A DNA stretch of 64,000 bases from an uncultured bacterium. GTDB taxonomy: Bacteria; Atribacterota; Atribacteria; Atribacterales; Caldatribacteriaceae. Positions within the stretch are counted from its first letter, which is position 1, and each line of letters starts with the position of its first letter. Positions 27,501 to 49,436 of the stretch are shown here, in pieces. The stretch covers positions 1 to 64,000 of the forward strand of contig CAKZPS010000023.1 of assembly GCA_937139415.1 (NCBI GenBank), in the 5' to 3' direction. The position numbers were made by a program, and so were the translations under genes. The notes beneath the pieces were generated by a model that worked only from the letters and a program-made list of their open reading frames with translations, ran no database searches and had not been told where the DNA came from.

Positions 27501-27548
27501 TTGACGAATGGGTGGTGAGCCGGTATAATCATTATGTGATCATATGAT
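27501..27548 (+). promoter_or_regulatory. Promoter and operator-like palindrome of the GRE operon
   Basis: TTGACG (27501-27506), a 17 bp spacer and TATAAT (27524-27529) form a strong promoter. The perfect 10 bp palindrome ATCATATGAT (27539-27548) covers the expected start of transcription and abuts the ATG at 27549, an ideal repressor position. The leader is only about 13 bases with no ribosome site. Autoregulation by the GntR protein is the simple reading. Confidence 0.7.
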
Positions 27549-28268
27549 ATGATAACCAGAGAGAGTTTGGTTAGTCAGGTTAAGAAAGAAATCTTAAACC
27601 TCGTTTTTCGTCAGCGTCTTGCAAAGGGAGAGCGATTGTTCTCGATCGACGAATTGGCACGTTTCCTTTCGGTGAGTACGACCACGGTGAGAGAAGCAAT
27701 ACGGAGCTTAGAACAGTTGCACGTCCTTGAAGTGAAGCAAGGGAAAGGTATTTATCTCGCCATCGATCCCCGTTCCTTAGGGAAGAACATTGCCCAATTG
27801 AAAAGTGCCACCGAAATGGCCCAGGAATCGGGAATTCATTTGGAAACCTTCCGTTGGCGAGTTGAGGAAATCGAAGCCGACCAGGATTTAGCAGAGAAGT
27901 TAAAAGTTCACCCCGGTACGTCACTGGTATTCCTGGCGCGGGTACGTGGTTTTGAAGGAGAAATGGCGGTGTATTTAGAGGATATTCTCACGAAAGAATT
28001 GGTAGCAGATTTTACCCCTTCTGATTGGCAGGGGTCGCTTTTTAACGCTTTAGAAAAACGGGGCATATTCATCACCCATTCCCTCGCTCAAATCATCCCT
28101 TATTTTCCCGAGGAACATTTTGCCAAGGAGATAGGATTAACTGAATTAGTTCCGCTTTTAGTGTTGGAACATCTGCACTTCGATGCCACGGGAAGGGTAG
28201 TGGCGTTTTCTAAGGATTATTACAATTCCAAGTACTTTCGTTTCGAAGTAGTACGGAAAAGAATTTGA
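27549..28268 (+). CDS. GntR-family regulator with UTRA effector domain
   Basis: A 239-residue regulator. The N-terminal winged helix (about 3-70) has LFSIDELARFLSVSTTTVREAIRSLEQ and GKGIYLA. The C-terminal UTRA domain (about 85-235) shows SLVFLARVRGFEG and VLEHLHFDATGRVVAFSKDYY, so it belongs to the HutC branch, whose members sense sugars, phosphosugars or amino-acid intermediates. It is the first gene of the GRE operon, 22 bp before the enzyme, and its start overlaps a palindrome. It probably represses the operon until the substrate or its phosphate appears. Confidence 0.88.
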   Translation: MITRESLVSQVKKEILNLVFRQRLAKGERLFSIDELARFLSVSTTTVREAIRSLEQLHVLEVKQGKGIYLAIDPRSLGKNIAQLKSATEMAQESGIHLETFRWRVEEIEADQDLAEKLKVHPGTSLVFLARVRGFEGEMAVYLEDILTKELVADFTPSDWQGSLFNALEKRGIFITHSLAQIIPYFPEEHFAKEIGLTELVPLLVLEHLHFDATGRVVAFSKDYYNSKYFRFEVVRKRI

Positions 28269-28290
28269 AGGGTGGAAAGGAGGAAGCGCG

Positions 28291-30723
28291 ATGCGTTTAA
28301 CCATGATAGAAGAAATGGAATTGTTAGATATGCCGTTTTTTCTGCCTGCGAGAATAGAGGAAATGCGAGAGGAACTTTTGCGTCTTGTGCCTCAGGTATG
28401 CACCGAACGGGCGCGGATCTATACCGAGGTATACGCCGCCCGTGAGGGAGATCCGCCCATTCTCAAACGGGCTAAGGCGTTAGCCGAGACGCTTTCTCGG
28501 ATGAGCATTTACTTATATCGTGACGAGCTCATCGTGGGAAATCAGGCTTCGAAAGTACGTGGGGCGCCAATCTTTCCCGAATATTCCTGGGATTGGATTG
28601 AAAAGGAAATTGATGAATTTGCCCGTCGTCCCGGAGATATTTTTCTTGTGAGTGATGAAGATAAGCGTATTCTCCTTGAGGAAGTTCTCCCCTACTGGAA
28701 GGGGAAAACGCTTTACGATCGTGCCATGAGCATTATCCCTGAGACGGTGAAAACCGCGCAAGATATAGGGGTGATATCGGGAAGGGGAAATATCACTTCT
28801 GGTGATGGACATATTATTGTCAATATGGAAAAGGTATTGCGCTTGGGTTTGCGGGGAGTTCGGGAAGAAGCAAGATTCTTTTTGGATCATCTTTCACCTT
28901 GTGAACCACTCTATTTAAAGAAGAAAGTCTTCTATCAATCAGTTCTCATCGTTTTAGAGGGAGTCATCCAGTTTATTCATCGATATATGCACCGGGCAAA
29001 AGTAGAAGCCGAGTTTGCCTCTCCTGTCAGGAAAAAGGAGTTACTCACCATAGCCGAGAATCTTCGGGTCATCGCCGAAAATCCTCCTCAAACTTTCTGG
29101 CAAGCCTTGCAACTGGTATGGTTTGTCCATTTAGTTTCCCAGATTGAGAGTAATGGCCACTCCTTCTCGGTGGGGAGGTTGGATCAGTATCTCTATCCTT
29201 ACTGGCAGAGAGACTTTGCTGAGCAAAGGATTGCCTTAGAAGAGACGGTAGAACTGTTGCAAAATATGTTTGTAAAGATGTTTACGATTAATAAAATTCG
29301 TCCTTGGTCGCATACCCAGTTTGGGATGGGATATACCACCTACCAGAACGTGACCATCGGTGGACAAGATTCTTCAGGTCATGATGCCACTAACGAGCTC
29401 ACCTACTTGATTCTCAAGGCGGTAGGGGGACTCCGGCTGACCACTCCTAATCTTTCCGCTCGCTTCCATAGTGCATCTCCGCGGAGCTATCTACGAGAAT
29501 GTGGTAAGGTCATTCGCTTGGGTTTTGGTATGCCGGCAATGAAAAACGACGAGATCATTATCCCTGCGCTTATGGACAAAGGGGCAACCATTGAAGATGC
29601 ACGTAACTATGCTATTGTAGGGTGTGTGGAAGCGGCGGTGCCCGGAAAGTGGGGATACCGTAATACCGGCATGACCTTTTTGAACGTGCTCAAGGTTTTA
29701 GAGCTTACTCTCCATGGGGGAAAATGTCCAAGAAGCGGTGTATGTCTTCTTGAAACGCCGGCGCCGCATGTTTGTACCACTTTTGAGGAGTTTTATCAAA
29801 CCTTTTTGAAGCAGCTGCAATTCTATACCCAATGTCAGGTTCTTATGGATGCCACCGCCGATCTGGCCTTAGAAGAATTGGTTCCTGACGCTTTTTGTTC
29901 TGCCTTGGTAGATGATTGTCTTCCTCGAGGGAAACACATTAAAGAAGGTGGGGCAGTATACGATGTGGTCAGTGGCCTCTTTTCCGGTTTAGCCAATGTT
30001 ACCAATAGTCTGGCAAACATTCGTGAACTCATTTATCGTCGCAAAGTCTTAAGTTGGGATCAACTTCTCGATGCTCTTCACAGAGATTTTGAGCATCTTT
30101 CCGGTCAGATGGTGCGCAAGATGCTCCTTGAGGAAGTCCCAAAATATGGAAACGACGTTGACGAAGTTGACGCCTTAGCCTGTCGGGTGATGAACGATTA
30201 CTTAGAGGAGATCAAGAAATACCGTAACACTCGCTATGGCCGTGGTCCAATCGGTGGTAATTACTGTGGTTCTACCTCAAACATTTCTGCGAACGTTCCT
30301 TTGGGAATGGCGGTAGATGCTACTCCTGACGGTAGAAAGGCACGAGAGCCTATTGCCGAAGGAGTATCGCCTTCCTATGGTACCGAAAAATCTGGTCCTA
30401 CTGCAGTACTGAAATCGGTTGGCAAACTGCCTACGGTTAAGATGATTGCGCAACTTTTGAACCTTAAGTTTACCCCGGCCGTCTTAGGAAGTGATGAGGG
30501 TTTAGAGCGGTTGGTTCGCCTTATAGTCACTTTTTTCCGCGACTTCAAAGGGTGGCATGTTCAATTTAACGTGGTGGATGCCCAAACTCTCCGAGAGGCA
30601 CAGAAGCATCCTGAAAAGTATCGCGATCTCATTGTGCGAGTGGCGGGGTACAGTGCACTTTTTACCGCCCTCGATCCTCGAACCCAGGAAGATATCATTC
30701 GTCGGACGGAACATACGCTCTGA
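28291..30723 (+). CDS. Glycyl radical enzyme, dehydratase/lyase type
   Basis: An 810-residue member of the pyruvate formate-lyase superfamily. The N-terminal PFL domain is followed by the active-site thiyl cysteine C445 in VGCVEAAVPGK, with Glu447 as the general base position, and the C-terminal glycyl radical loop RVAGYSA with Gly786, 24 residues from the end. True pyruvate formate-lyase has two adjacent cysteines; this has one plus Glu, the pattern of C-O or C-N cleaving members (glycerol and diol dehydratases, CutC, HypD, anhydrohexitol-phosphate lyases). GGTTPNLSARFH-like text (here LRLTTPNLSARFH) lies near 390. ATG 28291 is preceded by AAAGGAGG. A sugar kinase and importer follow, pointing to a phosphorylated sugar-like substrate. 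Its activase is at 35640. Confidence 0.93.
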   Translation: MRLTMIEEMELLDMPFFLPARIEEMREELLRLVPQVCTERARIYTEVYAAREGDPPILKRAKALAETLSRMSIYLYRDELIVGNQASKVRGAPIFPEYSWDWIEKEIDEFARRPGDIFLVSDEDKRILLEEVLPYWKGKTLYDRAMSIIPETVKTAQDIGVISGRGNITSGDGHIIVNMEKVLRLGLRGVREEARFFLDHLSPCEPLYLKKKVFYQSVLIVLEGVIQFIHRYMHRAKVEAEFASPVRKKELLTIAENLRVIAENPPQTFWQALQLVWFVHLVSQIESNGHSFSVGRLDQYLYPYWQRDFAEQRIALEETVELLQNMFVKMFTINKIRPWSHTQFGMGYTTYQNVTIGGQDSSGHDATNELTYLILKAVGGLRLTTPNLSARFHSASPRSYLRECGKVIRLGFGMPAMKNDEIIIPALMDKGATIEDARNYAIVGCVEAAVPGKWGYRNTGMTFLNVLKVLELTLHGGKCPRSGVCLLETPAPHVCTTFEEFYQTFLKQLQFYTQCQVLMDATADLALEELVPDAFCSALVDDCLPRGKHIKEGGAVYDVVSGLFSGLANVTNSLANIRELIYRRKVLSWDQLLDALHRDFEHLSGQMVRKMLLEEVPKYGNDVDEVDALACRVMNDYLEEIKKYRNTRYGRGPIGGNYCGSTSNISANVPLGMAVDATPDGRKAREPIAEGVSPSYGTEKSGPTAVLKSVGKLPTVKMIAQLLNLKFTPAVLGSDEGLERLVRLIVTFFRDFKGWHVQFNVVDAQTLREAQKHPEKYRDLIVRVAGYSALFTALDPRTQEDIIRRTEHTL

Positions 30724-30740
30724 TGGGGGAGAGCGAAAGT

Positions 30741-31733
30741 ATGTCCCACAAGGCCGTTTTTGGGGTTGACATCGGGGGTACGAAACTACGCGTCGGTTTA
30801 GTCGACGAACATTTTGAAATTGTGGATGCCCTCGTTACCCAAGATCACTGTTGGCTCAGTCCTCACGAGATGTTGGATTTTGTGGTTGCCCAGGTTACTA
30901 CCCTGAGACACCGCTATCTCCATCACCGAGTTTTGGGGTGTGGAGTTGGATATCCTGGTCCTATCAACTTTTTTAAGGGGACAACCTTTTCCTACTCTAA
31001 TTTGCGTGGGAGTGGGTGGGAGGGGGTTTCGTTGTCAAACCTCTTGAGTACCCAAATCAATCTTCCCGTGTGGATTGATAATGATGCTAATCTCGCCGGT
31101 CTCGCCGAGGTATACTTTGGTGCAGGTCAAGGCTTTTCCCACTGCGTTTACCTCACCATTAGTACCGGTCTTGGGGGGGCTATCTTTGTTGATGGAAAAC
31201 TCTATCGCGGTTTTTTGGGGTATGCGGGGGAATTCGGCCATATGGTGGTGGACTCTCATGGGGCTTACTGTAAGTGTGGCAATCGAGGGTGTCTCATGTC
31301 TTTGCTCTCCGGTCTTGGTATCGAAAAGCTTGTTCAGGAAGACCCCGCTTGCCGATTCATTTTTACCCCCGAAGAAAACCCCACGCTCTGTGTACAAAAA
31401 CTGGTAGAACTGGCTGCTCGAGGGGATCGAGTTGCCTTAGAAGTGATCCAGCCCTTGATTCAGTATCTCCAAATTGCTTTTCTCAACGTCATTGAGATCT
31501 TGAACCCAGAGGTTATCGTGGTCGGTGGGAGTTTGGGAAAAGCATTATTACGGCACTTTGTCACCCCGGTCGAAGAGTATCTTCTCGCCCATTTACCGAT
31601 AGAAGTGGTAAAACACACGGTCATTCGAGAGGCACGCTTAGGGGATTACAATGGTGTCTTGGGTGGAGCTCTTTTGGCTTTTCAGGAATTGGAGAAAGGA
31701 GGTGAAAAGGACAAAAAAGAAAAACATAAATGA
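30741..31733 (+). CDS. ROK-family sugar kinase
   Basis: A 330-residue ROK protein without a DNA-binding domain, so a kinase rather than a repressor. The phosphate loop is VDIGGTKLRVG (about 9-19), the catalytic Asp lies in WIDNDAN (about 111-117), E164 and H167 are in GEFGHM, and the zinc site has C177-x-C-G-x2-G-C184. The usual GCLE after the zinc loop is GCLM here. ROK kinases phosphorylate hexoses, N-acetylated amino sugars or allose-type sugars. ATG 30741 is preferred, behind GGGGGAG, over ATG 30723. It sits between the GRE and the importer, so its product is a likely GRE substrate. Confidence 0.9.
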   Translation: MSHKAVFGVDIGGTKLRVGLVDEHFEIVDALVTQDHCWLSPHEMLDFVVAQVTTLRHRYLHHRVLGCGVGYPGPINFFKGTTFSYSNLRGSGWEGVSLSNLLSTQINLPVWIDNDANLAGLAEVYFGAGQGFSHCVYLTISTGLGGAIFVDGKLYRGFLGYAGEFGHMVVDSHGAYCKCGNRGCLMSLLSGLGIEKLVQEDPACRFIFTPEENPTLCVQKLVELAARGDRVALEVIQPLIQYLQIAFLNVIEILNPEVIVVGGSLGKALLRHFVTPVEEYLLAHLPIEVVKHTVIREARLGDYNGVLGGALLAFQELEKGGEKDKKEKHK

Positions 31734-31773
31734 AGAGAGTAATCTTTAAATTCAAGCGAAAGGGGGAAATGGT

Positions 31774-33060
31774 GTGAGACGGTTTTTGTTTTGGGGATTG
31801 CTTATGGTATTCGTGATCGGTACGGGAATGGCCAATCTCTTTGCGCAGGAAAAAGAGGAAGAGTTCATCATTTTCCACTACTGGACTGCCGGTGGAGAGA
31901 AAGAGGCTATTGATGCTCTCTTTAAGATTTATCAAGAGAGAAATCCCGGCGTGAAAATCGTAGAGAATCCGGTGGCTGGTGGTGGAGGAGAAACCATGCT
32001 TGCAGTTTTAATGAGTAATTTAGCTGCTGGTATTCCTCCTGATTCCTTCCAAGACCATCAAGGAAATCAACAGAAAGATTACATCGATGCCGGATATCTT
32101 GATACCGTTGATGATATTTGGGCGCAGACGAATTTTGAAGCTCGTATTAACCCAATGTGGGTGAAAACCCTCAAATTTGGAGGACACGTGTATTCGGTTC
32201 CAATCAATGCCCATCGTACCAACTGGTTGTGGTATAACAAAAAACTCCTCGATGAATTGGGAATTGCTGCACCGAAGAGTTATGATGATCTGTTAGCAGC
32301 GTGCCAGAAAATTAAAGAGGCAAAACCTGACATCTCGCCTTTGGCTTTGGGTACCCGAGAGAAGGTGTGGTCTACCTATCTCTACGATATGGTACTTTTA
32401 ACCACCGGTGGAGCAGATTTCTATGAACAAGCGAACACGGGGAGAATAGATTTTCGCAATGATGCCACCTTCCGTCAGGCTATGGAGAGATACGCGGCGC
32501 TCATTCCGTACATTTATCCTTGGCATGCCACGAAGAGTTGGGATGAAGCAGGAGCCTTACTCAAGACCGGTGAGGCAGCGATGTACTGGATGGGAGACTG
32601 GATTTTGGGATACTATTTGGCGATTGGTATGGAACCGGAAGTGGATTTCAGTGTAACCGCTATTCCTGGAGACATATGGATGGGGCACGCCGACACTTTC
32701 CCGCTTCCTAAGGGGGCACCACATCCGAATAATGCTCGGGATTGGATTCTCATGTGCACTACCCCGGAGGCACAAAAGGCGTTCAATTTAATCAAGGGAT
32801 CGGTAACCATTGTGAATGATGTTCCTGCCGATGTTTATCCGGATCCGTACCGCAAAAAGAGCGCCCAGGATTTGGCCAGTTTGCGAGCGGTATGTGATGG
32901 TTTCCATGGAGGGATGATTACTCCGGCCTTCGGGAGTGAACTCATGGATATCCTCACGCGCTTTTTGGTGGATAAGGATGTAGATGCCGCTATCGAGAGT
33001 ATTGCCGAAGCGGCGGAACGTACCAAACTTGCCGAAGCGTGTAGTTGGTTCTGGGAATAA
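31774..33060 (+). CDS. Sugar ABC transporter binding protein
   Basis: A 428-residue family-1 extracellular solute-binding protein. A signal peptide ends near residue 24 (NLFAQ) with no lipobox cysteine, so it is free in the periplasm, as in diderms. IIFHYWTAGGEKEAID, NAHRTNWLWYNKKLLDELG and GEAAMYWMGDWI are typical of oligosaccharide and monosaccharide binders. Many Trp and Tyr residues fit carbohydrate stacking. Start GTG 31774. It is followed by a strong hairpin and then two permeases. The ligand is unknown; it should be the precursor of the GRE pathway substrate. Confidence 0.9.
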   Translation: MRRFLFWGLLMVFVIGTGMANLFAQEKEEEFIIFHYWTAGGEKEAIDALFKIYQERNPGVKIVENPVAGGGGETMLAVLMSNLAAGIPPDSFQDHQGNQQKDYIDAGYLDTVDDIWAQTNFEARINPMWVKTLKFGGHVYSVPINAHRTNWLWYNKKLLDELGIAAPKSYDDLLAACQKIKEAKPDISPLALGTREKVWSTYLYDMVLLTTGGADFYEQANTGRIDFRNDATFRQAMERYAALIPYIYPWHATKSWDEAGALLKTGEAAMYWMGDWILGYYLAIGMEPEVDFSVTAIPGDIWMGHADTFPLPKGAPHPNNARDWILMCTTPEAQKAFNLIKGSVTIVNDVPADVYPDPYRKKSAQDLASLRAVCDGFHGGMITPAFGSELMDILTRFLVDKDVDAAIESIAEAAERTKLAEACSWFWE

Positions 33061-33067
33061 AGGAAGA

Positions 33068-33096
33068 ACGAGGGAGGAGCGAAGCTCCTCCCTCGT
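33068..33096 (+). other. Strong hairpin at the binding-protein/permease junction
   Basis: A perfect 13 bp inverted repeat (33068-33080 with 33084-33096) around a GAA loop lies 7 bp after the binding-protein stop. There is no T-run. In many ABC operons such a hairpin protects the binding-protein mRNA from 3' decay or limits read-through, giving far more binding protein than permease. Confidence 0.7.
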
Positions 33097-33117
33097 CAAG
33101 GGTAGTGGGGGAAGATA

Positions 33118-33990
33118 ATGCGATACTATCGAACTCAAGGTTTACTCTTTTTGATTCCCATTGTGATCATTATCGGTATCTTCTATGGCATGATTGTGTG
33201 GGATTTTGTGGTTGCCTTTACCGGTTGGCAAGGATTGCAAGCGACTTGGAAATTTGTGGGGGGGTATCATTTCATACGCCTCTTCAGTTCAACGCGGTTT
33301 TGGGTGAACATTGGCAACAATCTTCGATGGTTAGTGTTTTTTATTGTGCCCACAGTTTTGGTGGGATTTATTCTCGCCTATTTTTTGCATAATTTAGGTC
33401 GAGGAGAGAAAATTCTCTGGCAGATTTTTCTCTTCCCCATGGCTCTTTCGTTTATCATTACCGGTGTTTTGTGGGCTTGGATGTATGATCCCAGTTCTGG
33501 ACTGATTAATTCGCTACTCCGGGCGATTGGTGTCAATACCTCTCAATTGGGATGGATTGCTCTGCCAAGTAGTGCAATTTACTGTATGATTATCGCCGGT
33601 TTCTGGCAGTATTTAGGCTTTGCTTTGGTGATCTATTTGGGAGCGATCAAAGGTATTCCCTATGAGATGGTGGAAGCGGCAAAGGTGGATGGTGCTTCTC
33701 ATTTCACGGTGCTTTTCCGTGTCATTTTCCCCAACGTGGGTCATGCCACTTTGATTTGTACCACCATGTTGGCGATTACCACAGTGAAAGTGTTTGACCT
33801 CGTTTGGGTAATGACCCGGGGTGGTCCGGGGGTAAGTACCGAAGTTTTGCCCTATTTGATGTATCGTCTCACTTTCGATTCTCGGGATATCGGTATGGGG
33901 GCGGCAACGAGCATCGTCATTCTTGCTCTCTCGGCCATCATGGTGATTCCTTACTCCCTATGGGCGCTTAAGAAATGGGTGAGAGTATGA
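33118..33990 (+). CDS. Sugar ABC transporter permease (MalF-like)
   Basis: A 290-residue permease with six hydrophobic segments. The EAA coupling loop reads EMVEAAKVDGASHFTVLFRVIFP (about 182-204). FFIVPTVLVGF and GAWMYDPSSGLIN-like text (here WAWMYDPSSGLIN) are typical of CUT1 sugar importers. It forms a heterodimer with the next gene, whose start overlaps its stop (ATGA). No ATPase gene belongs to this operon. Confidence 0.92.
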   Translation: MRYYRTQGLLFLIPIVIIIGIFYGMIVWDFVVAFTGWQGLQATWKFVGGYHFIRLFSSTRFWVNIGNNLRWLVFFIVPTVLVGFILAYFLHNLGRGEKILWQIFLFPMALSFIITGVLWAWMYDPSSGLINSLLRAIGVNTSQLGWIALPSSAIYCMIIAGFWQYLGFALVIYLGAIKGIPYEMVEAAKVDGASHFTVLFRVIFPNVGHATLICTTMLAITTVKVFDLVWVMTRGGPGVSTEVLPYLMYRLTFDSRDIGMGAATSIVILALSAIMVIPYSLWALKKWVRV

Positions 33991-34808
33991 AAGAGAGGAA
34001 CTTTGTCTTGATATCGGGGTTAGTGGTGGTTCTTTTGGCGGTAGTGTGGATGATTCCCATCTACGCTTTGGTAACAACCTCTTTAAAAACCCAACAGGAA
34101 GTGGCACTGCAAAAATATCTTGTTCCTCCCGAAAGACCACAGTTTTCCAATTTTATCAAGGCTTTCCAAGCTCTTAAGATCGGTTTACGGAATAGTGTGG
34201 TCATTACTCTCACCGCGACCTTCGTTTCCGTGGTCGTCGGTTCCTTGGCTGGGTACGCTCTAACCAGTTTTCAGTTTCGTTTTGCTACCCTCCTTTTCTT
34301 TTTTATCGTGGTGGTTACTTTTCTTCCCTATCACGTGGTTTTAATTCCTATCACCCACATTTTGAAATTCTTGAATTTACTCAATACCTACGCAGGGTTA
34401 GTGCTCATTTACACAATTTTGAATGCACCGATGGCTACTCTGATCACTGGTACCTTTTTTATGAAAGTTCCTCCAGAGTTAGAAGAGGCAGCAATGTTAG
34501 ATGGATGTAAACCATTTTTATTCTATCTTCGGGTGTTACTCCCCGTGTCCCTTCCAGGAATTGTTTCGGCTACTATTCTCGTGTTCGTGCAAATTTACAA
34601 TGAGTTTCTCTTAGGTATTGCTCTGACGCGTGGCCCTGATGTGAAACCGGTGATGCCCTTTTTAGCTGAACTCAAGGGTACTCAGATTGCTCAATGGCAT
34701 ATTCAAATGGCTGGTGCAGTCATCACCTCAATCATTCCAGTAATCGTTTTTGTGTTTCTGGGAAAATTTTTCATTTCCGGTTTAATGGCTGGCTATGGAA
34801 AAGGATAG
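33987..34808 (+). CDS. Sugar ABC transporter permease (MalG-like)
   Basis: A 273-residue permease with six transmembrane segments. The EAA loop reads ELEEAAMLDGCKPFLFYLRVLLP (about 163-185), and FLPYHVVLIPITHILKFLNLLNTYAGL is the conserved CUT1 region before it (quoted in parts: FLPYHVVLIP, LLNTYAGL). It partners the preceding MalF-like gene. ATG 33987 lies in the ATGA overlap. The amidotransferase-like gene follows after 17 bp. Confidence 0.92.
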   Translation: MKERNFVLISGLVVVLLAVVWMIPIYALVTTSLKTQQEVALQKYLVPPERPQFSNFIKAFQALKIGLRNSVVITLTATFVSVVVGSLAGYALTSFQFRFATLLFFFIVVVTFLPYHVVLIPITHILKFLNLLNTYAGLVLIYTILNAPMATLITGTFFMKVPPELEEAAMLDGCKPFLFYLRVLLPVSLPGIVSATILVFVQIYNEFLLGIALTRGPDVKPVMPFLAELKGTQIAQWHIQMAGAVITSIIPVIVFVFLGKFFISGLMAGYGKG

Positions 34809-34825
34809 AAAGGAGATGGACAAAA

Positions 34826-35587
34826 ATGGAGAGTAACGGGAAAATTCGGGCACTTTTGGTGGGCGAGACCTGGGTTGTTTCTAAATTTCACATTAAGGGT
34901 TTCGATGTCGTTCCTTTAGGAGGGTACGAAGATTTTTCGGTCTGGTTCAGGGAGGCTTTGAAGAACTACGCCGATGTGGAAATTGTCCATATGCCTAATC
35001 ATATTGCCTTAACCCTGTTTCCCGAGAGTTTGAGTGCGTTGCAAGAGTATCAGGTACTCATTTTGAGCGATGTGGGAAGAAATACCCTTACCTTTTATCC
35101 TGATATGTTCAGGGTTCCCATGGGACCGGGTAAATTGACCTTGATTCAGGAATTTGTCAACCGAGGTGGAGGATTGGTTATGGCCGGTGGTTGGATGTCC
35201 TTCCAAGGATTCCGTGCCATGGCCAACTACCATGGGAGCCCCATCGAAGAAGTCCTTCCGGTAATGATCTGCGATGGCGATGACCGAGTAGAAACGACCG
35301 AGGGGATAAAACCGGAGATTGTTCGTAGTGGCCATCCCATCTTAGAGGGAATTCCGCAAGATTGGCCGTCTTTTTTGGGTTATAATCGTTTGAGAGCAAA
35401 GCCCCATGCCGAGCTTCTGGCCAAAGTCGGTGAAGACGCTTTTCTGGCCGTGGGTGAATATGGTCGGGGGAGAACTATGGCTTTTGCTTCTGACCTTGCT
35501 CCTCATTGGGGGTGCGACTTTGTCCGCTGGGCGGGTTACCCTCTCTTTTGGCACCAGAGTATTCAGTGGGTGGCTCGACGTCGCTAA
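34826..35587 (+). CDS. Amidotransferase-like protein without a nucleophile
   Basis: A 253-residue class-I-amidotransferase-like fold (GATase1_like / DUF1355 group). EYQVLILSDVGRNTL, then FVNRGGGLVMAGGWMSFQG: the position where true amidotransferases have the Cys of the nucleophile elbow is Trp-Met-Ser, so no amide hydrolysis is expected. The late GEYGRGRTMAFASDLAPHWG is also characteristic. Members are often found in carbohydrate catabolic operons near ThuA-type proteins; activity is unknown. AAGGAG lies ahead of ATG 34826. Confidence 0.82.
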   Translation: MESNGKIRALLVGETWVVSKFHIKGFDVVPLGGYEDFSVWFREALKNYADVEIVHMPNHIALTLFPESLSALQEYQVLILSDVGRNTLTFYPDMFRVPMGPGKLTLIQEFVNRGGGLVMAGGWMSFQGFRAMANYHGSPIEEVLPVMICDGDDRVETTEGIKPEIVRSGHPILEGIPQDWPSFLGYNRLRAKPHAELLAKVGEDAFLAVGEYGRGRTMAFASDLAPHWGCDFVRWAGYPLFWHQSIQWVARRR

Positions 35588-35639
35588 AAAATGAGAGGAG
35601 AGGAGAACTTTGCATAGGAGCGCCAAAGGACGGTATAAA

Positions 35640-36557
35640 ATGACGACCAAAGGTATTATCTTCGACATTCAGCGCTTTTCGCTCCATGATGGCCCGGGAA
35701 TTCGGACCACCATATTTCTGAAGGGATGTCCTTTGCGATGTTTCTGGTGCCATAATCCGGAGTCGCAGGAAATTCATGGCGAAATTGCTTTCTACGCCAC
35801 AAAGTGTGTTCGATGTGGAGAGTGTGAGAGGATATGTCCGGAACACGCCATTATCCTCGGTTCCCCGTTCCATGTGGATCGGGAGCGATGCACCGTGTGT
35901 GGATTATGCATACCTTTTTGTCCCGTGGGTGCTCTGGAAATCGTTGGTCGGGAGATAACCGTAGAAGAGGTGATTCGAGAAGTTGAAAAGGACGCTCTTT
36001 TTTATGAGGAATCGGGAGGAGGGGTCACGATTTCGGGTGGAGAACCTTTGGCTCAGTTCTCCTTTACCATGGCGCTTGTCGATGCGCTCAAAAGGAAAGG
36101 TTTCCATGTCGCTATTGATACCGCAGGTTATTCGGGGGAGAATAACGATGATTATGAGAAGCTTGAGGTTTTCGCAAGCCGCGTTGACCTCATTCTCTAC
36201 GATGTGAAACTCATTGATCAAGCGAAACACAAATACTACGTCGGAGTGGATAACGTAACCATTCTCTCCAATCTATGCAGATTATGGTCATCCTTTCCTC
36301 ATCGCCTTCTCATCCGTTACCCTTTGGTTCCCGGAATTAACGATACTCCTCGGGATATTGAGCTCCTCATCGATTTTCTCCGCGATTTTCCTGGTGCCAC
36401 GATCGAGTTACTCCCTTATCATCGGTTGGGGGTGAATAAATATCTCCGTTTAGGGAAACCATACCATTTGGAGGGTGTTTTACCTACCCCTGAGGAGCGG
36501 AAGAGGAGGATAGAGCAAACGGTGAGAGAAGCCTTGCCTTCTCTCGTAGTCCGCTGA
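35640..36557 (+). CDS. Glycyl radical enzyme activase (radical SAM)
   Basis: A 305-residue activating enzyme. The radical SAM cysteines are C30, C34 and C37 in [15 protein letters not shown] two-cluster ferredoxin insert follows: C56-x2-C-x2-C-x3-C66 and C84-x2-C-x2-C-x3-C94. [13 protein letters not shown] is the SAM-binding GGE region. Activases with this extra ferredoxin domain serve dehydratase/decarboxylase-type GREs, whereas PflA lacks it, supporting the assignment at 28291. ATG 35640 gives the canonical N terminus; TTG 35610 is an alternative. It acts in the cytoplasm to place the radical on Gly786. Confidence 0.94.
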
Positions 36558-36582
36558 TCGAGAGTTTGGGGGAGATGGAGAG

Positions 36583-36999
36583 ATGCGGAGTTATCGGAAA
36601 GAGCTCTGGTTTCAAACCGAAACGCGACGGGCTTTTCTCAACATTACTCCACTCCTTGAAGTATGTGTCCGAGAGAGTGGGGTGCAAGAAGGGCTTTTAC
36701 TGTGTAATGCCATGCACATTACCGCCAGTGTGTTTGTGAATGACGATGAGGAAGGGTTACACCGGGATTTCGAACGGTGGTTGGAGAAATTGGCTCCTGA
36801 GAAGCCTTACGAGCAGTATGAGCATAACCTGGGTGAAGATAATGCCGATGCCCATCTCAAGCGGACCATTATGGGGAGAGAGGTGGTGATAGCGATTACT
36901 GCTGGGAAGTTAGACCTTGGTCCATGGGAACAAGTGTTTTATGGAGAGTTTGATGGCCAACGCAGGAAACGGGTCTTAGTGAAGATCATCGGGGAGTAG
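36583..36999 (+). CDS. YjbQ-family (UPF0047) protein
   Basis: A 138-residue UPF0047 protein. Conserved text includes [36 protein letters not shown], a central [18 protein letters not shown] with the metal-binding His residues, and the C-terminal [19 protein letters not shown]. Members form trimers and have weak thiamine-phosphate synthase activity in E. coli, but the natural role is unclear. Its place inside the GRE operon, 25 bp after the activase and 13 bp before the UroD-like gene, is notable. Confidence 0.9.
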
Positions 37000-37012
37000 A
37001 GGGGGGAGAAGC

Positions 37013-38242
37013 GTGACTTCGCGTGAACGAGTGCAAAAAGCTTTGGCTCATGAGAAACCGGATAAAATTCCCATCGATTTCGGTGGACACCATTCTTCGG
37101 GGATTATGGCTTTGGCGTACCGCGATTTACGGAAGAAATTGGGTTTAGCGGAGAAACCTATTTTAGTCTACGATTTCATCCAACAGTTAGCCCTCATTGA
37201 GATAGATGTTTTAGACTTCGTCCAAGGGGATGTGGTGGGGTTAGAACACCTCTTTGCAGAGGAGGATTGGTACTGGAAGGATTGGGAACTCCCTGACGGG
37301 ACTCCTTGTAAGATCCCTGCCTTCATCGAGGTGAAACGGAGCGAGGAAGGATGGGTGGTTTTGGGAGATGAAGGGCAGCCTATTTGTGTCCAGCGTCCGG
37401 GATGTTTGTACTTTGAACAGTGTTATTTCCCTCTCCTCGATAATCCAGATGAGGAATTTACCCGGTTAGGGTATTACCTCAACCAGATTACGTGGTTCCG
37501 TTTGGGTTCGCCTCCCTTTCCTCTCTCGGTAGAGGAACAGAAGGAATACGCTCGGAAACTCCGTGCTTCAACCGATCGAGCCATCTACGCTACCTTCGGG
37601 GGAAACTTACTCGAGACGGCGCAGTTTGCCTTTCGCATGGACCAATTTTTCACCGAGATTGCTTTGCATCCTCTCCGCATGCATCGTTTCTTGGATCGGT
37701 TGGTGGAACACCACCTGGCCAACTTAGAGGCGTTCTTGGACATCTACGGTCCTTACGTGGATATCATTGGTTTCGGTGACGACTTAGGGATGCAAACCGG
37801 CCCGCAGATTTCTCCGGCCATGTACCGTGAGTTCTTTCAGCCCCGTCACGCCCTCCTCTGGCAAACGGTGAAGAAAAAGTATCCGCATCTTAAGGTGGCC
37901 CTGCACACCTGTGGAAGTATCACACGCCTCTTGCCTCTCCTCATCGAAGCGGGGTTAGACATCGTCCAGCCGGTGCAGATTGCCGCTAAGGAAATGGAAC
38001 CCGAGGTGCTGAAAAGAGATTTCGGCAAGGATATTGTGTTTTGGGGAGGGGGCTGTGACACCCAGAATGTACTTCCTTTTGGGACTCCCCAAGAAGTGCG
38101 CGAACACACCCGACGCAACGTAGCAGTCTTTGCTCCGGGAGGGGGGTACGTATTCCAACAAGTGCATAACATTATGGCGGGAGTGCCTCCTGAAAACATC
38201 ATCGCCATGTTCGAGGAAGTGAACGCCTTTTCTTATCGTTGA
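37013..38242 (+). CDS. UroD/MtaA-like protein of the GRE operon
   Basis: A 409-residue member of the uroporphyrinogen decarboxylase superfamily with GTG start. It has the MtaA-type zinc ligands: H298 and C300 in ALHTCGS and C348 in WGGGCDTQN. The Arg-rich N-terminal motif of true porphyrin decarboxylases is absent. Zinc-bearing members move methyl groups from corrinoids to thiols, but no corrinoid protein or methyltransferase lies nearby. PHIGFGDDLG-like text (here IIGFGDDLGMQTG) is family-typical. It ends the operon. A function on a sugar-derived product is possible but unproven. Confidence 0.87.
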   Translation: MTSRERVQKALAHEKPDKIPIDFGGHHSSGIMALAYRDLRKKLGLAEKPILVYDFIQQLALIEIDVLDFVQGDVVGLEHLFAEEDWYWKDWELPDGTPCKIPAFIEVKRSEEGWVVLGDEGQPICVQRPGCLYFEQCYFPLLDNPDEEFTRLGYYLNQITWFRLGSPPFPLSVEEQKEYARKLRASTDRAIYATFGGNLLETAQFAFRMDQFFTEIALHPLRMHRFLDRLVEHHLANLEAFLDIYGPYVDIIGFGDDLGMQTGPQISPAMYREFFQPRHALLWQTVKKKYPHLKVALHTCGSITRLLPLLIEAGLDIVQPVQIAAKEMEPEVLKRDFGKDIVFWGGGCDTQNVLPFGTPQEVREHTRRNVAVFAPGGGYVFQQVHNIMAGVPPENIIAMFEEVNAFSYR

Positions 38243-45292: not shown

Positions 45293-46585
45293 ATGGAGTA
45301 TCGGAGAAAAACGCAACTTCTCTTCGCCCTCGCGATGTTGGTGAACATTGTCCTCGGGGGATGGAGTTTACTATTCTCCCAGGAACCCGTGACGATCGAG
45401 TTTTGGCATGTACATGCGGAGACCTTTGGTGGTCCGGCCATTAATGAACTTGTCGAGCGCTTCAATGCCCAGAACCCCGATATCCGAGTAGTGGAAAAGT
45501 TCAATCCCAACATGTACTTGGGGCTCACCCAGAACTTGCAAGCCGCCATCGCCGCTAAGAACCCTCCTGCTATCACCCAGCTGGGCAATAACTGGGTAGA
45601 GTACGGTGCGACCAACTTCCCCCATGTACCCATAGAAGAGTTCTTGAAAAATGACTCGGAAGGGCAAGCAATTGTAGCTAAGATTCCCGAAGGAGTTCTC
45701 AACATTGGCCGCCGTGAGGGGAAATTGGTAGCTATGATTTGGTCGTTGAGTAATCCGGTTCTCTACTACAACGTGGACATGTTCAAAGAAGCAGGTCTCG
45801 ATCCTCAAAATCCTCCCAAAACTTGGAAAGAATTACGGGAAGTAGCCCGCCAAATTAAAGAGAAAACTGGAAACTACGGTTTGTACCTCCAGGAACCGGG
45901 AGACTTCTGGGGGCAACAAGCACTCATCGAATCGAACGGTGCCGAGCTCCTCAAGAAAGATGGTGGGAAATGGGTCACCGGTTTAGATAGTGAGGAAGCG
46001 ATCGAAGCTTTTGAACTCTATGCCGATATGGCACTCAAGGATCAGACCGCCCTCCATGCTCCTTGGGATCAGGGTATGAACGCCTTTGTGGGTGGGAAAG
46101 TAGGGATGGCTATTACCACCATTGCCCGTCGGAACTACGTGGAATCGAATGCCAACTTCACCGTGCAAGCGGCACCTTTCCCTCTCTTCGAAGGGAAACC
46201 GCGGCGGGTTCCGGGAGGAGGGAATGTGCTCATGATCACCGCCCAAAAGAAAAAAGAACAAGAAGCAGCATGGCGTTTCATCAAGTATCTCCTCTCTCCG
46301 GAAGCAATGACCATCTGGACAAAGGGAACCGGGTACGTGCCTATTCGCTTGGATGTAGCGGAAGATCCCAATTACCTCAAGCCCTTCTTAGATGCCAATC
46401 CCATGATGCGGGTAGCCTTGAAGCAACTCAACGATGTCGTTCCCTGGGTGAACTTCCCTGGAAAGAATGCGACTCAAATTGAACAAATTCTCCTTGACGT
46501 GCGGAGTGCCATCCTCACCGGGCAAAAGGCTCCTCGGGAGGCACTCAAGGAAGCCGCGGCTAAAATTAACGCTCTTCTCCCATAG
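45293..46585 (+). CDS. Sugar ABC transporter binding protein (UgpB-like)
   Basis: A 430-residue family-1 binding protein. A signal peptide ends near LLFSQ (residue about 30) with no lipobox. VTIEFWHVHAETFGGPAINELV, GNNWVEYGA and KGTGYVPIRLD are close to UgpB-type glycerol-3-phosphate/glycerophosphodiester and maltose-like binders. AGAGGAGG precedes the ATG. It heads a complete importer: two permeases and an ATPase. The ligand is unknown. Confidence 0.9.
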   Translation: MEYRRKTQLLFALAMLVNIVLGGWSLLFSQEPVTIEFWHVHAETFGGPAINELVERFNAQNPDIRVVEKFNPNMYLGLTQNLQAAIAAKNPPAITQLGNNWVEYGATNFPHVPIEEFLKNDSEGQAIVAKIPEGVLNIGRREGKLVAMIWSLSNPVLYYNVDMFKEAGLDPQNPPKTWKELREVARQIKEKTGNYGLYLQEPGDFWGQQALIESNGAELLKKDGGKWVTGLDSEEAIEAFELYADMALKDQTALHAPWDQGMNAFVGGKVGMAITTIARRNYVESNANFTVQAAPFPLFEGKPRRVPGGGNVLMITAQKKKEQEAAWRFIKYLLSPEAMTIWTKGTGYVPIRLDVAEDPNYLKPFLDANPMMRVALKQLNDVVPWVNFPGKNATQIEQILLDVRSAILTGQKAPREALKEAAAKINALLP

Positions 46586-46598
46586 AGGAGGCGAAACG

Positions 46599-47474
46599 GT
46601 GCTTCGGAAGTACGCCTTTGTCTTTTTCATCCTCCCAGCAGGTTTCCTGCTGGGAGTGTTTGCTTTCGGTGCCGTGGCCCACTCGGTGTTTCTGAGTACC
46701 CTGGATTGGAATCTCATTTCTCCGGAGATTACCAGAGTAGGATGGAAGAACTACGGAGAGGTGTTCCGGAGCGAAGAGTTTCGTCTCTCTCTGTGGAATA
46801 CCCTCCTCTACTCCCTCCTCTTTGTGGGAGCGATTTTCGTCGCCCCTTATGGGAGTGCTTTCCTGGTGACCAGGGTGGCACGACGCTGGCAAGGGGTTTA
46901 TAAATCGTTACTCTTTTTTCCCAGTATTCTCTCTTTGGCGGTGCTCTCCGTGATCTTTCTCTGGCTCTACAACCCCTTGGTAGGACCTCTGGATCGGGTG
47001 TTCACCTCTTTAGGCTTGAGGCGTCTCTTTTGGCTTACCGACCGACGCTTAGTGGTCGTAGCTTTGACCATCGTGACTGCACTCAAGCTCTTCGGTTACA
47101 ACTTTATCGTTTCTTTGGCAGGGTTTCTGTCGGTACCCGCACAAATCGAAGAGGCCGCTCTCCTTGACCGTGCTTCGGGATGGGACCTCTTCTTCTGGAT
47201 TTACTGTCCCTTGACCTCAGCCAACGCCGTGTTCGTTCTTGCTACGGCAGTGGTAGTAGGGGCGCAATACCTCTTTGTTCCTATTCACATGCTCACCGGA
47301 GGAGGGCCGAACTACGCGAGCAGTAATCTCATTTTCCTCATCTATCAGTATGGTTTTCAGTTCTTCCAAAGTGGCAAGGCAGCGGCAGTAGCAGTGTTGA
47401 CCCTCCTTTTCTTTTCCGGCTTCATCGTGGTCCAGGCTTTTTTGGTCGAGCGGAGGGTCTACTATGAGAGCTAA
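46599..47474 (+). CDS. Sugar ABC transporter permease (UgpA-like)
   Basis: A 291-residue permease with six helices. The coupling loop reads QIEEAALLDRASGWDLFFWIYCP (quoted in part as QIEEAALLDRASGW). SLLFFPSILSLAVLSVIFLWLYNP is the CUT1 helix 3-4 region (in part: FFPSILSLAVLS). It starts at GTG 46599 behind GAGGAGG; an upstream in-frame extension falls inside the binding-protein gene and is rejected. A strong hairpin lies inside its first codons. Confidence 0.92.
   Translation: MLRKYAFVFFILPAGFLLGVFAFGAVAHSVFLSTLDWNLISPEITRVGWKNYGEVFRSEEFRLSLWNTLLYSLLFVGAIFVAPYGSAFLVTRVARRWQGVYKSLLFFPSILSLAVLSVIFLWLYNPLVGPLDRVFTSLGLRRLFWLTDRRLVVVALTIVTALKLFGYNFIVSLAGFLSVPAQIEEAALLDRASGWDLFFWIYCPLTSANAVFVLATAVVVGAQYLFVPIHMLTGGGPNYASSNLIFLIYQYGFQFFQSGKAAAVAVLTLLFFSGFIVVQAFLVERRVYYES
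46632..46656 (+). other. Hairpin inside the first codons of the UgpA-like gene
   Basis: CTCCCAGCAGG (46632-46642) and CCTGCTGGGAG (46646-46656) are perfect 11 bp arms around TTT. They encode part of the first membrane helix, about codons 12-20. The position matches the junction hairpin of the other sugar operon at 33068, except that here there is no intergenic space. Confidence 0.6.
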
Positions 47475-48282
47475 ACTCTTCTTCATTCATGCGATACTTC
47501 TCTCTCTTCTTATCTTTTCCCTCCTCCCTTTGACCTGGATGGTAGGAGTTTCATTTAAGACCGCCAAGGAAATTTTTACCGGTTCGGTGAATCCTCTGCC
47601 TCACCGACCCACCGTGGAGAACTATGCTCTGGTTATGGAGCGGAGTCCCTTAATCCTCTACTTCCTCAACACCCTCAAGGCAGCCTCTTTAGTGACCGGA
47701 ATTCTCTTTGTGGTGAGTATCTTTGCCGCCTACGGGTTCAGCTTTTTTCGTTTCATGGGGAGAGATTTCCTCTTCTACCTTTTCCTCCTGAGTCTATTTG
47801 TTCCTTTCCATGTGCGGATGATTCCTAACTATCTCTTAGTGAGTGAACTCGACTGGGTCAATACCCCGTGGGGAATAGCAATTCCCCAGGCGGCCAATGC
47901 CTTAGGAGTTTTCCTCTTGCGTCAAGGAATGAAAACTATCCCCCGCTCTCTCGTTGAGGCTGCTCTCGTGGATCGGGCTGGACATTTCGAGATTCTCTTC
48001 CGAGTGATCCTCCCCCTTCTGAAACCCGCCCTGGCGGCACTGTGTATCACCTTTTTTGTAAATGCATGGAACGAATACTACTGGCCTCTCCTTGTGGTGA
48101 GCGATAAAGCCAAGTATACCCTGCCCCTTTTCCTGCGCATGTACGTGAGTGAGGAAGGGGGAACTGCCTGGGGAGCGATGATGGCTGCTTCCACATTAGT
48201 GAGTCTGCCGCTTATGGTGCTTTACCTCTTTACTCAGCGTTTCATCATTGAGACCTATCTCAAGTCGGGAATCAAGGGGTGA
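47464..48282 (+). CDS. Sugar ABC transporter permease (UgpE-like)
   Basis: A 272-residue permease with six helices. The EAA loop reads SLVEAALVDRAGHFEILFRVILP, given in part as VEAALVDRAGHFEI, and NAWNEYYWPLLV is the conserved C-terminal feature of CUT1 permeases. It overlaps the preceding permease by 11 bp and touches the ATPase gene. It partners UgpA-like protein. Confidence 0.93.
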   Translation: MRAKLFFIHAILLSLLIFSLLPLTWMVGVSFKTAKEIFTGSVNPLPHRPTVENYALVMERSPLILYFLNTLKAASLVTGILFVVSIFAAYGFSFFRFMGRDFLFYLFLLSLFVPFHVRMIPNYLLVSELDWVNTPWGIAIPQAANALGVFLLRQGMKTIPRSLVEAALVDRAGHFEILFRVILPLLKPALAALCITFFVNAWNEYYWPLLVVSDKAKYTLPLFLRMYVSEEGGTAWGAMMAASTLVSLPLMVLYLFTQRFIIETYLKSGIKG

Positions 48283-48287
48283 GGGAA

Positions 48288-49436
48288 ATGAGTGCACTGG
48301 GGATCCGTTTTGTGAAGGTAATGAAAAGGTATGCCACCTATGTTGCCCTCCAGGGGTTGGATTTAGAAATCGAACCGGGGACTCGTTTTGTGCTCCTTGG
48401 ACATTCTGGCTCAGGAAAGACCACTACCCTGCGTTTGATCGCCGGTTTGGAAGAACCGACCTCAGGAGAGATCTTCCTCGGTGAACAAAAGGTTAACCAA
48501 CTCCCTCCCGGAGAGCGAGAAATTGCCATGGTCTTTCAAGATTACGCTCTCTACCCCCACATGACGGTGGAGGAGAACCTCCGCTTCGGCCTCAAACGGA
48601 GGGGAGTCCCTCGTGAAGAAGCAGAACAGCGGATCGGAAAAGTCCTACGGATGTTAGAGATCGAGGAATTACGTCGTCGCCGTCCCCGTGAGCTCTCGGG
48701 GGGACAACGACAGAGGGTAGCTCTGGCGCGGGCTTTGGTGAAGGAAGCACCTATTCTCCTCCTTGATGAGCCCCTCTCCAACTTGGATGCCCGCTTGCGG
48801 TTGCAGGCGCGTCGTGAACTCATTGAACTCCACGAACGTTTAGGGTTTACCATGGTTTACGTCACCCATGACCAGGTGGAGGCGATGGCCATCGGAGAGA
48901 AGATGGCCATCTTAGAGCGAGGAGTTCTGGAGCAGGTTGGTACCCCGCAGGAACTCTACCATGCTCCCCGAAACCTTACGGTGGCAAAATTCTTAGGGAG
49001 CCCCCCCATGAACTGTATCACCGTACAGTGGGATGGAAGAGGAAACATTTTCTTCTCCGAGGCGCAGTTTTTGGTTGCCCTTCCCGAAGATTGGACGAGA
49101 GTCCTCGAACATTTCCCTCCCTCTCCTCTCATTTTGGGGGTGCGTCCTGAGGACTGTTTCCTCCATCACCTCCCCAGAGAGGGGAATCCTGCTCTCCCCG
49201 TCCGGGTGAAAGGAATAGAAGACTTGGGAGCAGAGTTTCTCGTGCACCTTGACCAATTCACAGCGCGGGTTAAAGATCTTCCCTATCCCTTTGGAGAAGA
49301 GCTTTTCCTCTCTTTCGCTTGGCCGAAGGTACACTTCTTTGACCCTCGCACTGAGCGTACTTTGAGGGAGGAAAAAGGTGAATCTTCTATTCATTCTCTT
49401 CTCTCTCAAGCAGGTTGGGCTTTTCCCCTTGGTTAG
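48288..49436 (+). CDS. Sugar ABC transporter ATPase (MsmX/UgpC type)
   Basis: A 382-residue CUT1 ATPase. Walker A GHSGSGKTT (38-46), signature LSGGQRQRVALARAL, Walker B LLLDEPLSNLDA, VTHDQVEAMAIGEKMAI switch region, then a C-terminal TOBE/OB regulatory domain (about 240-360). It is the only sugar-type ATPase in the window. ATPases of this type can serve several importers, so it may also power the GRE-linked transporter at 31774-34808. ATG 48288 is favoured; GTG 48279 is possible. Confidence 0.93.
   Translation: MSALGIRFVKVMKRYATYVALQGLDLEIEPGTRFVLLGHSGSGKTTTLRLIAGLEEPTSGEIFLGEQKVNQLPPGEREIAMVFQDYALYPHMTVEENLRFGLKRRGVPREEAEQRIGKVLRMLEIEELRRRRPRELSGGQRQRVALARALVKEAPILLLDEPLSNLDARLRLQARRELIELHERLGFTMVYVTHDQVEAMAIGEKMAILERGVLEQVGTPQELYHAPRNLTVAKFLGSPPMNCITVQWDGRGNIFFSEAQFLVALPEDWTRVLEHFPPSPLILGVRPEDCFLHHLPREGNPALPVRVKGIEDLGAEFLVHLDQFTARVKDLPYPFGEELFLSFAWPKVHFFDPRTERTLREEKGESSIHSLLSQAGWAFPLG

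Follow-up and report, generated by a model that had tools for sequence, protein, structure and literature searches.

A glycyl-radical enzyme operon of an uncultured Atribacterota bacterium with a probable role in the PTS-independent breakdown of 1,5-anhydrohexitols

Which compound is broken down by an oxygen-sensitive glycyl-radical enzyme (GRE) that is encoded together with a sugar importer and a sugar kinase is the question raised by an operon of an uncultured bacterium of the Caldatribacteriaceae (Atribacterota). The window, i.e. the whole stretch of 64,000 nucleotides analysed, lies on contig 23 (CAKZPS010000023.1, positions 1-64,000) of a 2.32-Mb assembly, 96% complete. A preliminary description had proposed that a sugar-like substrate, possibly an anhydrohexitol, is imported, phosphorylated and split by a radical enzyme, and this general scheme of import, phosphorylation and radical cleavage appears well supported by the sequence. 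In PMC12441222, which cites Ma et al., the GREs YbiW and PflD are described as converting 1,5-anhydroglucitol 6-phosphate and 1,5-anhydromannitol 6-phosphate, respectively, to 1-deoxyfructose 6-phosphate, a step preceded by phosphorylation through the PTS.

Open reading frames and profile searches of the window gave a run of ten genes on the forward strand (27549-38242), in the order GntR/UTRA regulator, GRE, ROK kinase, binding protein, two permeases, PF07090 protein, activase, YjbQ and UroD-like protein (Table 1). All the parts previously named are present where they had been placed, and the eight-gene set described behind one promoter corresponds to these ten genes once each of the three importer genes is counted by itself. 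The start of the ROK gene overlaps the GRE stop codon by one base and the permease genes also overlap, so tight co-expression is likely. Boxes resembling -35 and -10 elements precede the GntR gene in the relatives too. Moreover, GTGATCATATGAT stands before this gene in the window and in two related genomes (G016 and G017), and a TCATCATATGA-like stretch occupies the same place in G024 and G003; the palindrome is a probable candidate site for GntR autoregulation. A hairpin in the gap between the binding-protein and permease genes is kept in all seven genomes examined (the window and six relatives), its sequences being unrelated.

Table 1. Features of the operon, with positions in the window
Feature	Position	Strand	Remarks
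Sigma-70-like promoter, TTGACG-17-TATAAT	27501..27529	+	11/12 consensus matches, best in region
Operator-like GTGATCATATGAT stretch, palindrome ATCATATGAT	27535..27548	+	directly 5' of GntR start codon
GntR/UTRA transcription regulator	27549..28268	+	UTRA 82 bits, GntR 48 bits
GRE, YbiW clade (C445, E447, G786)	28291..30723	+	profiles, tree, alignment
ROK sugar kinase	30723..31733	+	DND and ExGH catalytic motifs kept; CxCGxxGCLM, not CxCGxxGCLE
Met192 codon of ROK kinase, in place of conserved sugar-binding Glu	31296..31298	+	
ABC solute-binding protein (SBP_bac_1)	31774..33060	+	nearest solved relatives glucose-binding proteins
Strong hairpin between binding-protein and permease genes	33067..33097	+	
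ABC permease A	33118..33990	+	GlcT-like, 155.6 bits, below cut-off
ABC permease B	33975..34808	+	GlcU-like, 189.2 bits, below cut-off
PF07090 GATase1_like protein	34826..35587	+	no nucleophile-elbow Cys
Radical-SAM GRE activase	35640..36557	+	radical-SAM cluster and two extra ferredoxin-type clusters
YjbQ/UPF0047 protein	36583..36999	+	Thermotoga TM0723, 259.8 bits, whole length
UroD/MtaA-superfamily protein	37013..38242	+	H298-x-C300 and C348

The GRE, the sole Gly_radical match of the whole assembly, carries the marks of the pyruvate formate-lyase (PFL)-like glycyl-radical enzymes: the PFL-like domain, a thiyl Cys (C445-V-E447, a single Cys and no Cys-Cys pair) and the C-terminal RVxGY Gly (G786 in RVAGYSA). 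Among solved structures YbiW, to which it is ~48% identical, comes nearest (808 bits), ahead of glycerol dehydratase (584) and PflD (535), and profile scores fall in the same order (921, 707 and 625). It stays under the NCBIfam equivalog cut-offs for CutC (534.9/1050), HypD (535.6/1100), sulfopropanediol dehydratase (578.7/1000) and PFL (133.5/994.2). In a maximum-likelihood (ML) tree of 38 GRE rows, those of the window, Atribacterota, Chloroflexota, E. coli and Klebsiella YbiW and Enterococcus form one clade (98/95), to which a plasmid GRE and one Atribacterota paralog are sister (100/99), while PflD, the diol dehydratases, HypD and CutC all fall outside. The clustering with CutC or HypD that the preliminary description had named as an argument against its sugar pathway thus did not occur in this tree.

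The alignment points the same way. The YbiW-type stretches TSGDxH, H341, KWGYRxTGM and RYGRGPxGG are kept in the GRE and differ in the diol dehydratases, where TEGWHD stands near the radical Cys instead of KWGYRxTGM and RYGRGPxGG corresponds to a gap; the Asp of the EGWHD stretch after C-x-E, a mark of glycerol and propanediol dehydratases, is absent from the GRE. Among the references, Asn387 is common only to this GRE, YbiW and PflD, the rows of glycerol/diol dehydratases, HypD and CutC-like enzymes having Ser at this place. The 27 clade-specific columns were picked after the fact and are descriptive only. An AlphaFold model of the GRE, built with ten orthologs, was too poor (mean pLDDT 59) and was set aside.

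The kinase offers a second line of evidence. In ROK and E. coli glucokinase structures a Glu reaches the C1 hydroxyl of the sugar. In human GNE the residue is E588; it counts among five conserved residues that bind the sugar (PMC2742894, PMC5458393) and belongs to the ROK motif CxCGxxGCx(E/D) (PMC5458393); in the structurally related MurK, the C1 hydroxyl is recognised by an Asp (PMC10465942). The window kinase has the marks of ROK hexose kinases, namely DxGxT, the catalytic Asp, ExGH and CxCGxxGC, and the acid that should end the last motif is replaced by Met192. A kinase for a sugar lacking a 1-OH would be expected to do without such an acid, so Met192 is a hint at the substrate that is independent of the GRE. 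A DNA-pattern search of 50 Atribacterota genomes returned nine matches to the Met form, all nine in GRE-linked ROK genes, against 143 to the Glu form and none to a reversed control pattern. Apart from these nine, a Met-pattern match in G295 was discarded, the gene not being a ROK. Furthermore, six Chloroflexota GRE-linked ROKs carry Met (L058, L059, L060, L062, L065 and CP069395.1), and an acid, Asp or Glu, is retained by other ROKs nearby in L058, L059 and CP069395.1. A ROK of a separate lineage, next to the paralogous GRE of G008, has Gln. A quick tree groups all Met-type ROKs in a single clade and places the Gln form apart from it, so that the change to Met was probably one event, carried along with the GRE, and the acid has probably been lost at least twice beside such GREs. 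One Met-type ROK is found without a GRE (G053, L165:7721-8758), with genes for a Zn alcohol dehydrogenase and an epimerase-like protein at its side; it possibly phosphorylates a different sugar that lacks a free 1-OH. A literature search for anhydroglucitol kinases gave nothing useful.

Related GREs occur in 11 of the 50 Atribacterota genomes at 65-100% identity, followed by a gap down to 49%. The genes from GntR to the activase are contiguous, in the same order, in G022, G024 and G003, and a contig of G023 carries the segment between GRE and PF07090, both included. The full set, with YjbQ and the UroD-like gene, is present in G016 and G017, followed in G017 by the downstream MFS gene; each set is divided between two contigs, with the break at the ROK gene, and is presumed to be contiguous. 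Smaller versions are GntR-GRE-ROK-activase in G007, without importer and PF07090, GRE-ROK in G009 and activase-GRE-ROK in G010. The recurrence of the same order shows that the operon is not a chance assembly, and by its pattern ROK, GRE and activase form the core, PF07090 accompanies uptake, and YjbQ and the UroD-like gene are additions of one family. The expectation that the neighbours would be conserved together is thus borne out in several genomes from GntR to the activase, and fails for the last two genes, which keep this company in the window's family only.

In Chloroflexota genomes, GREs 56-62% identical to that of the window are accompanied by an activase and, in five of six cases, by a ROK gene, with other gene orders and other importers. 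On the plasmid CP069395.1, PF07090, an RPE-like gene, ROK, GRE and activase adjoin a D-allose operon. At L060:7417-12376, a PflD-like and a YbiW-like GRE lie side by side with one activase, one Met-type ROK and importer genes, possibly a combined anhydroglucitol/anhydromannitol route; such a pair would be expected if both anhydrohexitol epimers were used. Upstream of the ABC-ROK-activase-GRE genes of Leptolinea, a Gfo/Idh/MocA oxidoreductase gene (L058:468-1610) is a candidate 1,5-anhydrofructose reductase. The GH31 family includes alpha-glucan lyases, which make 1,5-anhydrofructose; a GH31 gene and an MFS transporter gene are found near a chromosome-like ybiW region on a Klebsiella plasmid (L171, NZ_CP079601.1). 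No gene for a 1,5-anhydrofructose reductase or a glucan lyase was found within the operon of the window, and the one GH31 gene of the genome lies on another contig.

As regards uptake, the best permease scores are those of GlcT and GlcU. No ATPase gene was found within the operon; a second sugar ABC system lies ~7 kb downstream (45293-49436), and its MalK-like ATPase (48279-49436) may also serve the operon's importer. PF07090 orthologs are present in all seven genomes whose operon includes the importer and in no others, and G022 has one paralog besides; PF07090 tracks uptake.

The last two genes are of another kind. YjbQ is far better conserved than its operon neighbours, and this, with its closeness to TM0723, suggests transfer or strong constraint. 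The UroD-like protein, whose last Cys is not kept in all relatives, was modelled (pLDDT 81) as a barrel of the uroporphyrinogen-decarboxylase type (TM ~0.55); cobalamin-independent methionine synthase gave a lower match than the uroporphyrinogen decarboxylases, and no function follows from the model. Both genes join the cluster in three genomes (the window's, G016 and G017) and are not in that of G022, G024, G003 or G007; in G022, G024 and G019, UroD-like orthologs lie at other loci, and G019 lacks an orthologous GRE. Proteins of this type (~380-430 aa) are greatly expanded in the window's order, several of them beside sugar ABC permease genes, with 7 to 22 matches per genome (7 in the genome of the window, 22 in G008). 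A literature search for YjbQ or UroD proteins paired with GREs gave nothing useful, and neither gene helps to name the substrate. Of the three partners put forward earlier as signs of a new GRE pathway, the amidotransferase-like PF07090 protein holds its place (7/7 importer genomes and the Chloroflexota plasmid); the argument for novelty drawn from YjbQ and the UroD-like protein is weak, both lying outside the cluster in other Atribacterota families.

The place of the GRE in the YbiW clade, the Glu-to-Met change of the kinase and the glucose-type binding protein strengthen the earlier idea of an anhydrohexitol 6-phosphate, and together they suggest that the operon probably serves a PTS-independent 'radical glycolysis' whose substrate is a 1,5-anhydrohexitol, 1,5-anhydroglucitol being the likeliest. 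In such a pathway the importer would bring in the sugar and the ROK kinase, whose pocket lacks the conserved Glu that helps to bind the sugar near its C1 side, would phosphorylate O6. The activase would install the radical on Gly786, Cys445 with Glu447 would abstract a hydrogen from the 6-phosphorylated sugar, and opening of the C-O bond in the ring, as in YbiW, would give 1-deoxyfructose 6-phosphate, the GntR/UTRA regulator probably sensing the sugar phosphate. In E. coli, 1-deoxyfructose 6-phosphate is cleaved by the aldolase FSA, and residues 59 and 131 separate FSA (Gln/Tyr) from transaldolase (Glu/Phe). No FsaA-type aldolase with Gln59/Tyr131 was found in Atribacterota: of 17 homologues of FsaA, 16 span both positions (short TAL/FSA homologues of the window's genome and 15 others) and have Glu59/Phe131, and the partial 17th has Phe131. 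The Gln59/Tyr131 pair is found at the Vibrio PflD locus, in one gene on an Enterococcus plasmid and in one from Chloroflexota. Without FSA-type residues, either a transaldolase-type enzyme or another aldolase would act on the product, or the product of the GRE differs.

The same logic could apply to a different substrate, such as 1,5-anhydromannitol, another epimer, a deoxy- or keto-sugar or a polyol, a reading that is rather unlikely though far from negligible. YbiW and PflD already differ in the epimer they use (PMC12441222), and ~48% identity to YbiW leaves room for another substrate or epimer; the Met-type ROK of G053 with its Zn dehydrogenase and epimerase-like neighbours, and the D-allose operon and RPE-like gene beside the GRE set of CP069395.1, also favour it, whereas the tree and the pocket stretches side with YbiW over PflD and the binding protein is of the glucose type. 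It is considerably less likely that YjbQ and the UroD-like protein are real pathway steps, for instance by processing methyl or one-carbon groups of the compound taken up. Their tight spacing in the window, their position after the activase in G016 and G017 and a UroD-like gene ~4 kb from the GRE in L060 agree with such a role, against which stand their absence from the cluster of four relatives, the UroD-like orthologs located elsewhere, one of them in a genome without an orthologous GRE, and the abundance of UroD-like proteins throughout the order. Hardly probable at all is a diol or glycerol dehydratase, a C-N lyase or a pyruvate formate-lyase lying by chance among sugar genes: these enzymes share the superfamily, and the operon closes with genes of unassigned role, but the GRE reaches none of the equivalog cut-offs given above (HypD, CutC, sulfopropanediol dehydratase, PFL), branches outside those clades and is linked to a sugar kinase in two phyla.

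With 1,5-anhydrohexitol 'radical glycolysis' as the preferred reading, a recently described pathway of gut bacteria most likely appears, to judge from gene content and motifs, in an uncultured anaerobe with another uptake and kinase module. The YbiW/PflD reaction has been described for PTS-using gut bacteria; if the reading is true, the same radical chemistry, supplied with substrate by an importer and a kinase, is at work in uncultured anaerobes belonging to other phyla, and 1,5-anhydro-sugars would be a more general anaerobic carbon source. The Met192 type would provide a one-residue sequence marker for such kinases, and PF07090 proteins with solved structures and no function would gain a functional context. 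More tentatively, Met-type ROKs could be dedicated 1,5-anhydrohexitol 6-kinases that mark anhydro-sugar use, the radical glycolysis of Atribacterota and Chloroflexota being independent of both PTS and FSA, with a new cleavage step and an uptake-tied PF07090 accessory.

Compared with known systems, the operon is closest to YbiW-YbiY-FsaA of E. coli, with which it shares the GRE clade, the active-site stretches, an activase of its own and the predicted anaerobic ring opening. Entry is through the PTS in E. coli and through an ABC importer and a ROK kinase in the window, where alone GntR/UTRA control and a PF07090 partner are found; the E. coli system includes an FSA-type aldolase, whereas none was found in the window's phylum. 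PflD of E. coli and Vibrio, acting on 1,5-anhydromannitol 6-phosphate, resembles the GRE in the predicted kind of reaction and in the Asn387 equivalent, but belongs to a different part of the ML tree, and its Vibrio locus contains PTS genes and a transaldolase-family gene with Gln59/Tyr131. The kinase shares DxGxT, the catalytic Asp, ExGH and the Cys3 zinc motif with ROK glucokinases and N-acetylmannosamine kinases, which have the conserved sugar-binding Glu after GC(L/I) where the window has Met. Finally, the PF07090 proteins 2gk3 and 3soz (STM1381) are similar to that of the window over their whole length and likewise lack the elbow nucleophile Cys; they have no assigned function, whereas the PF07090 protein of the window is tied to a GRE operon.
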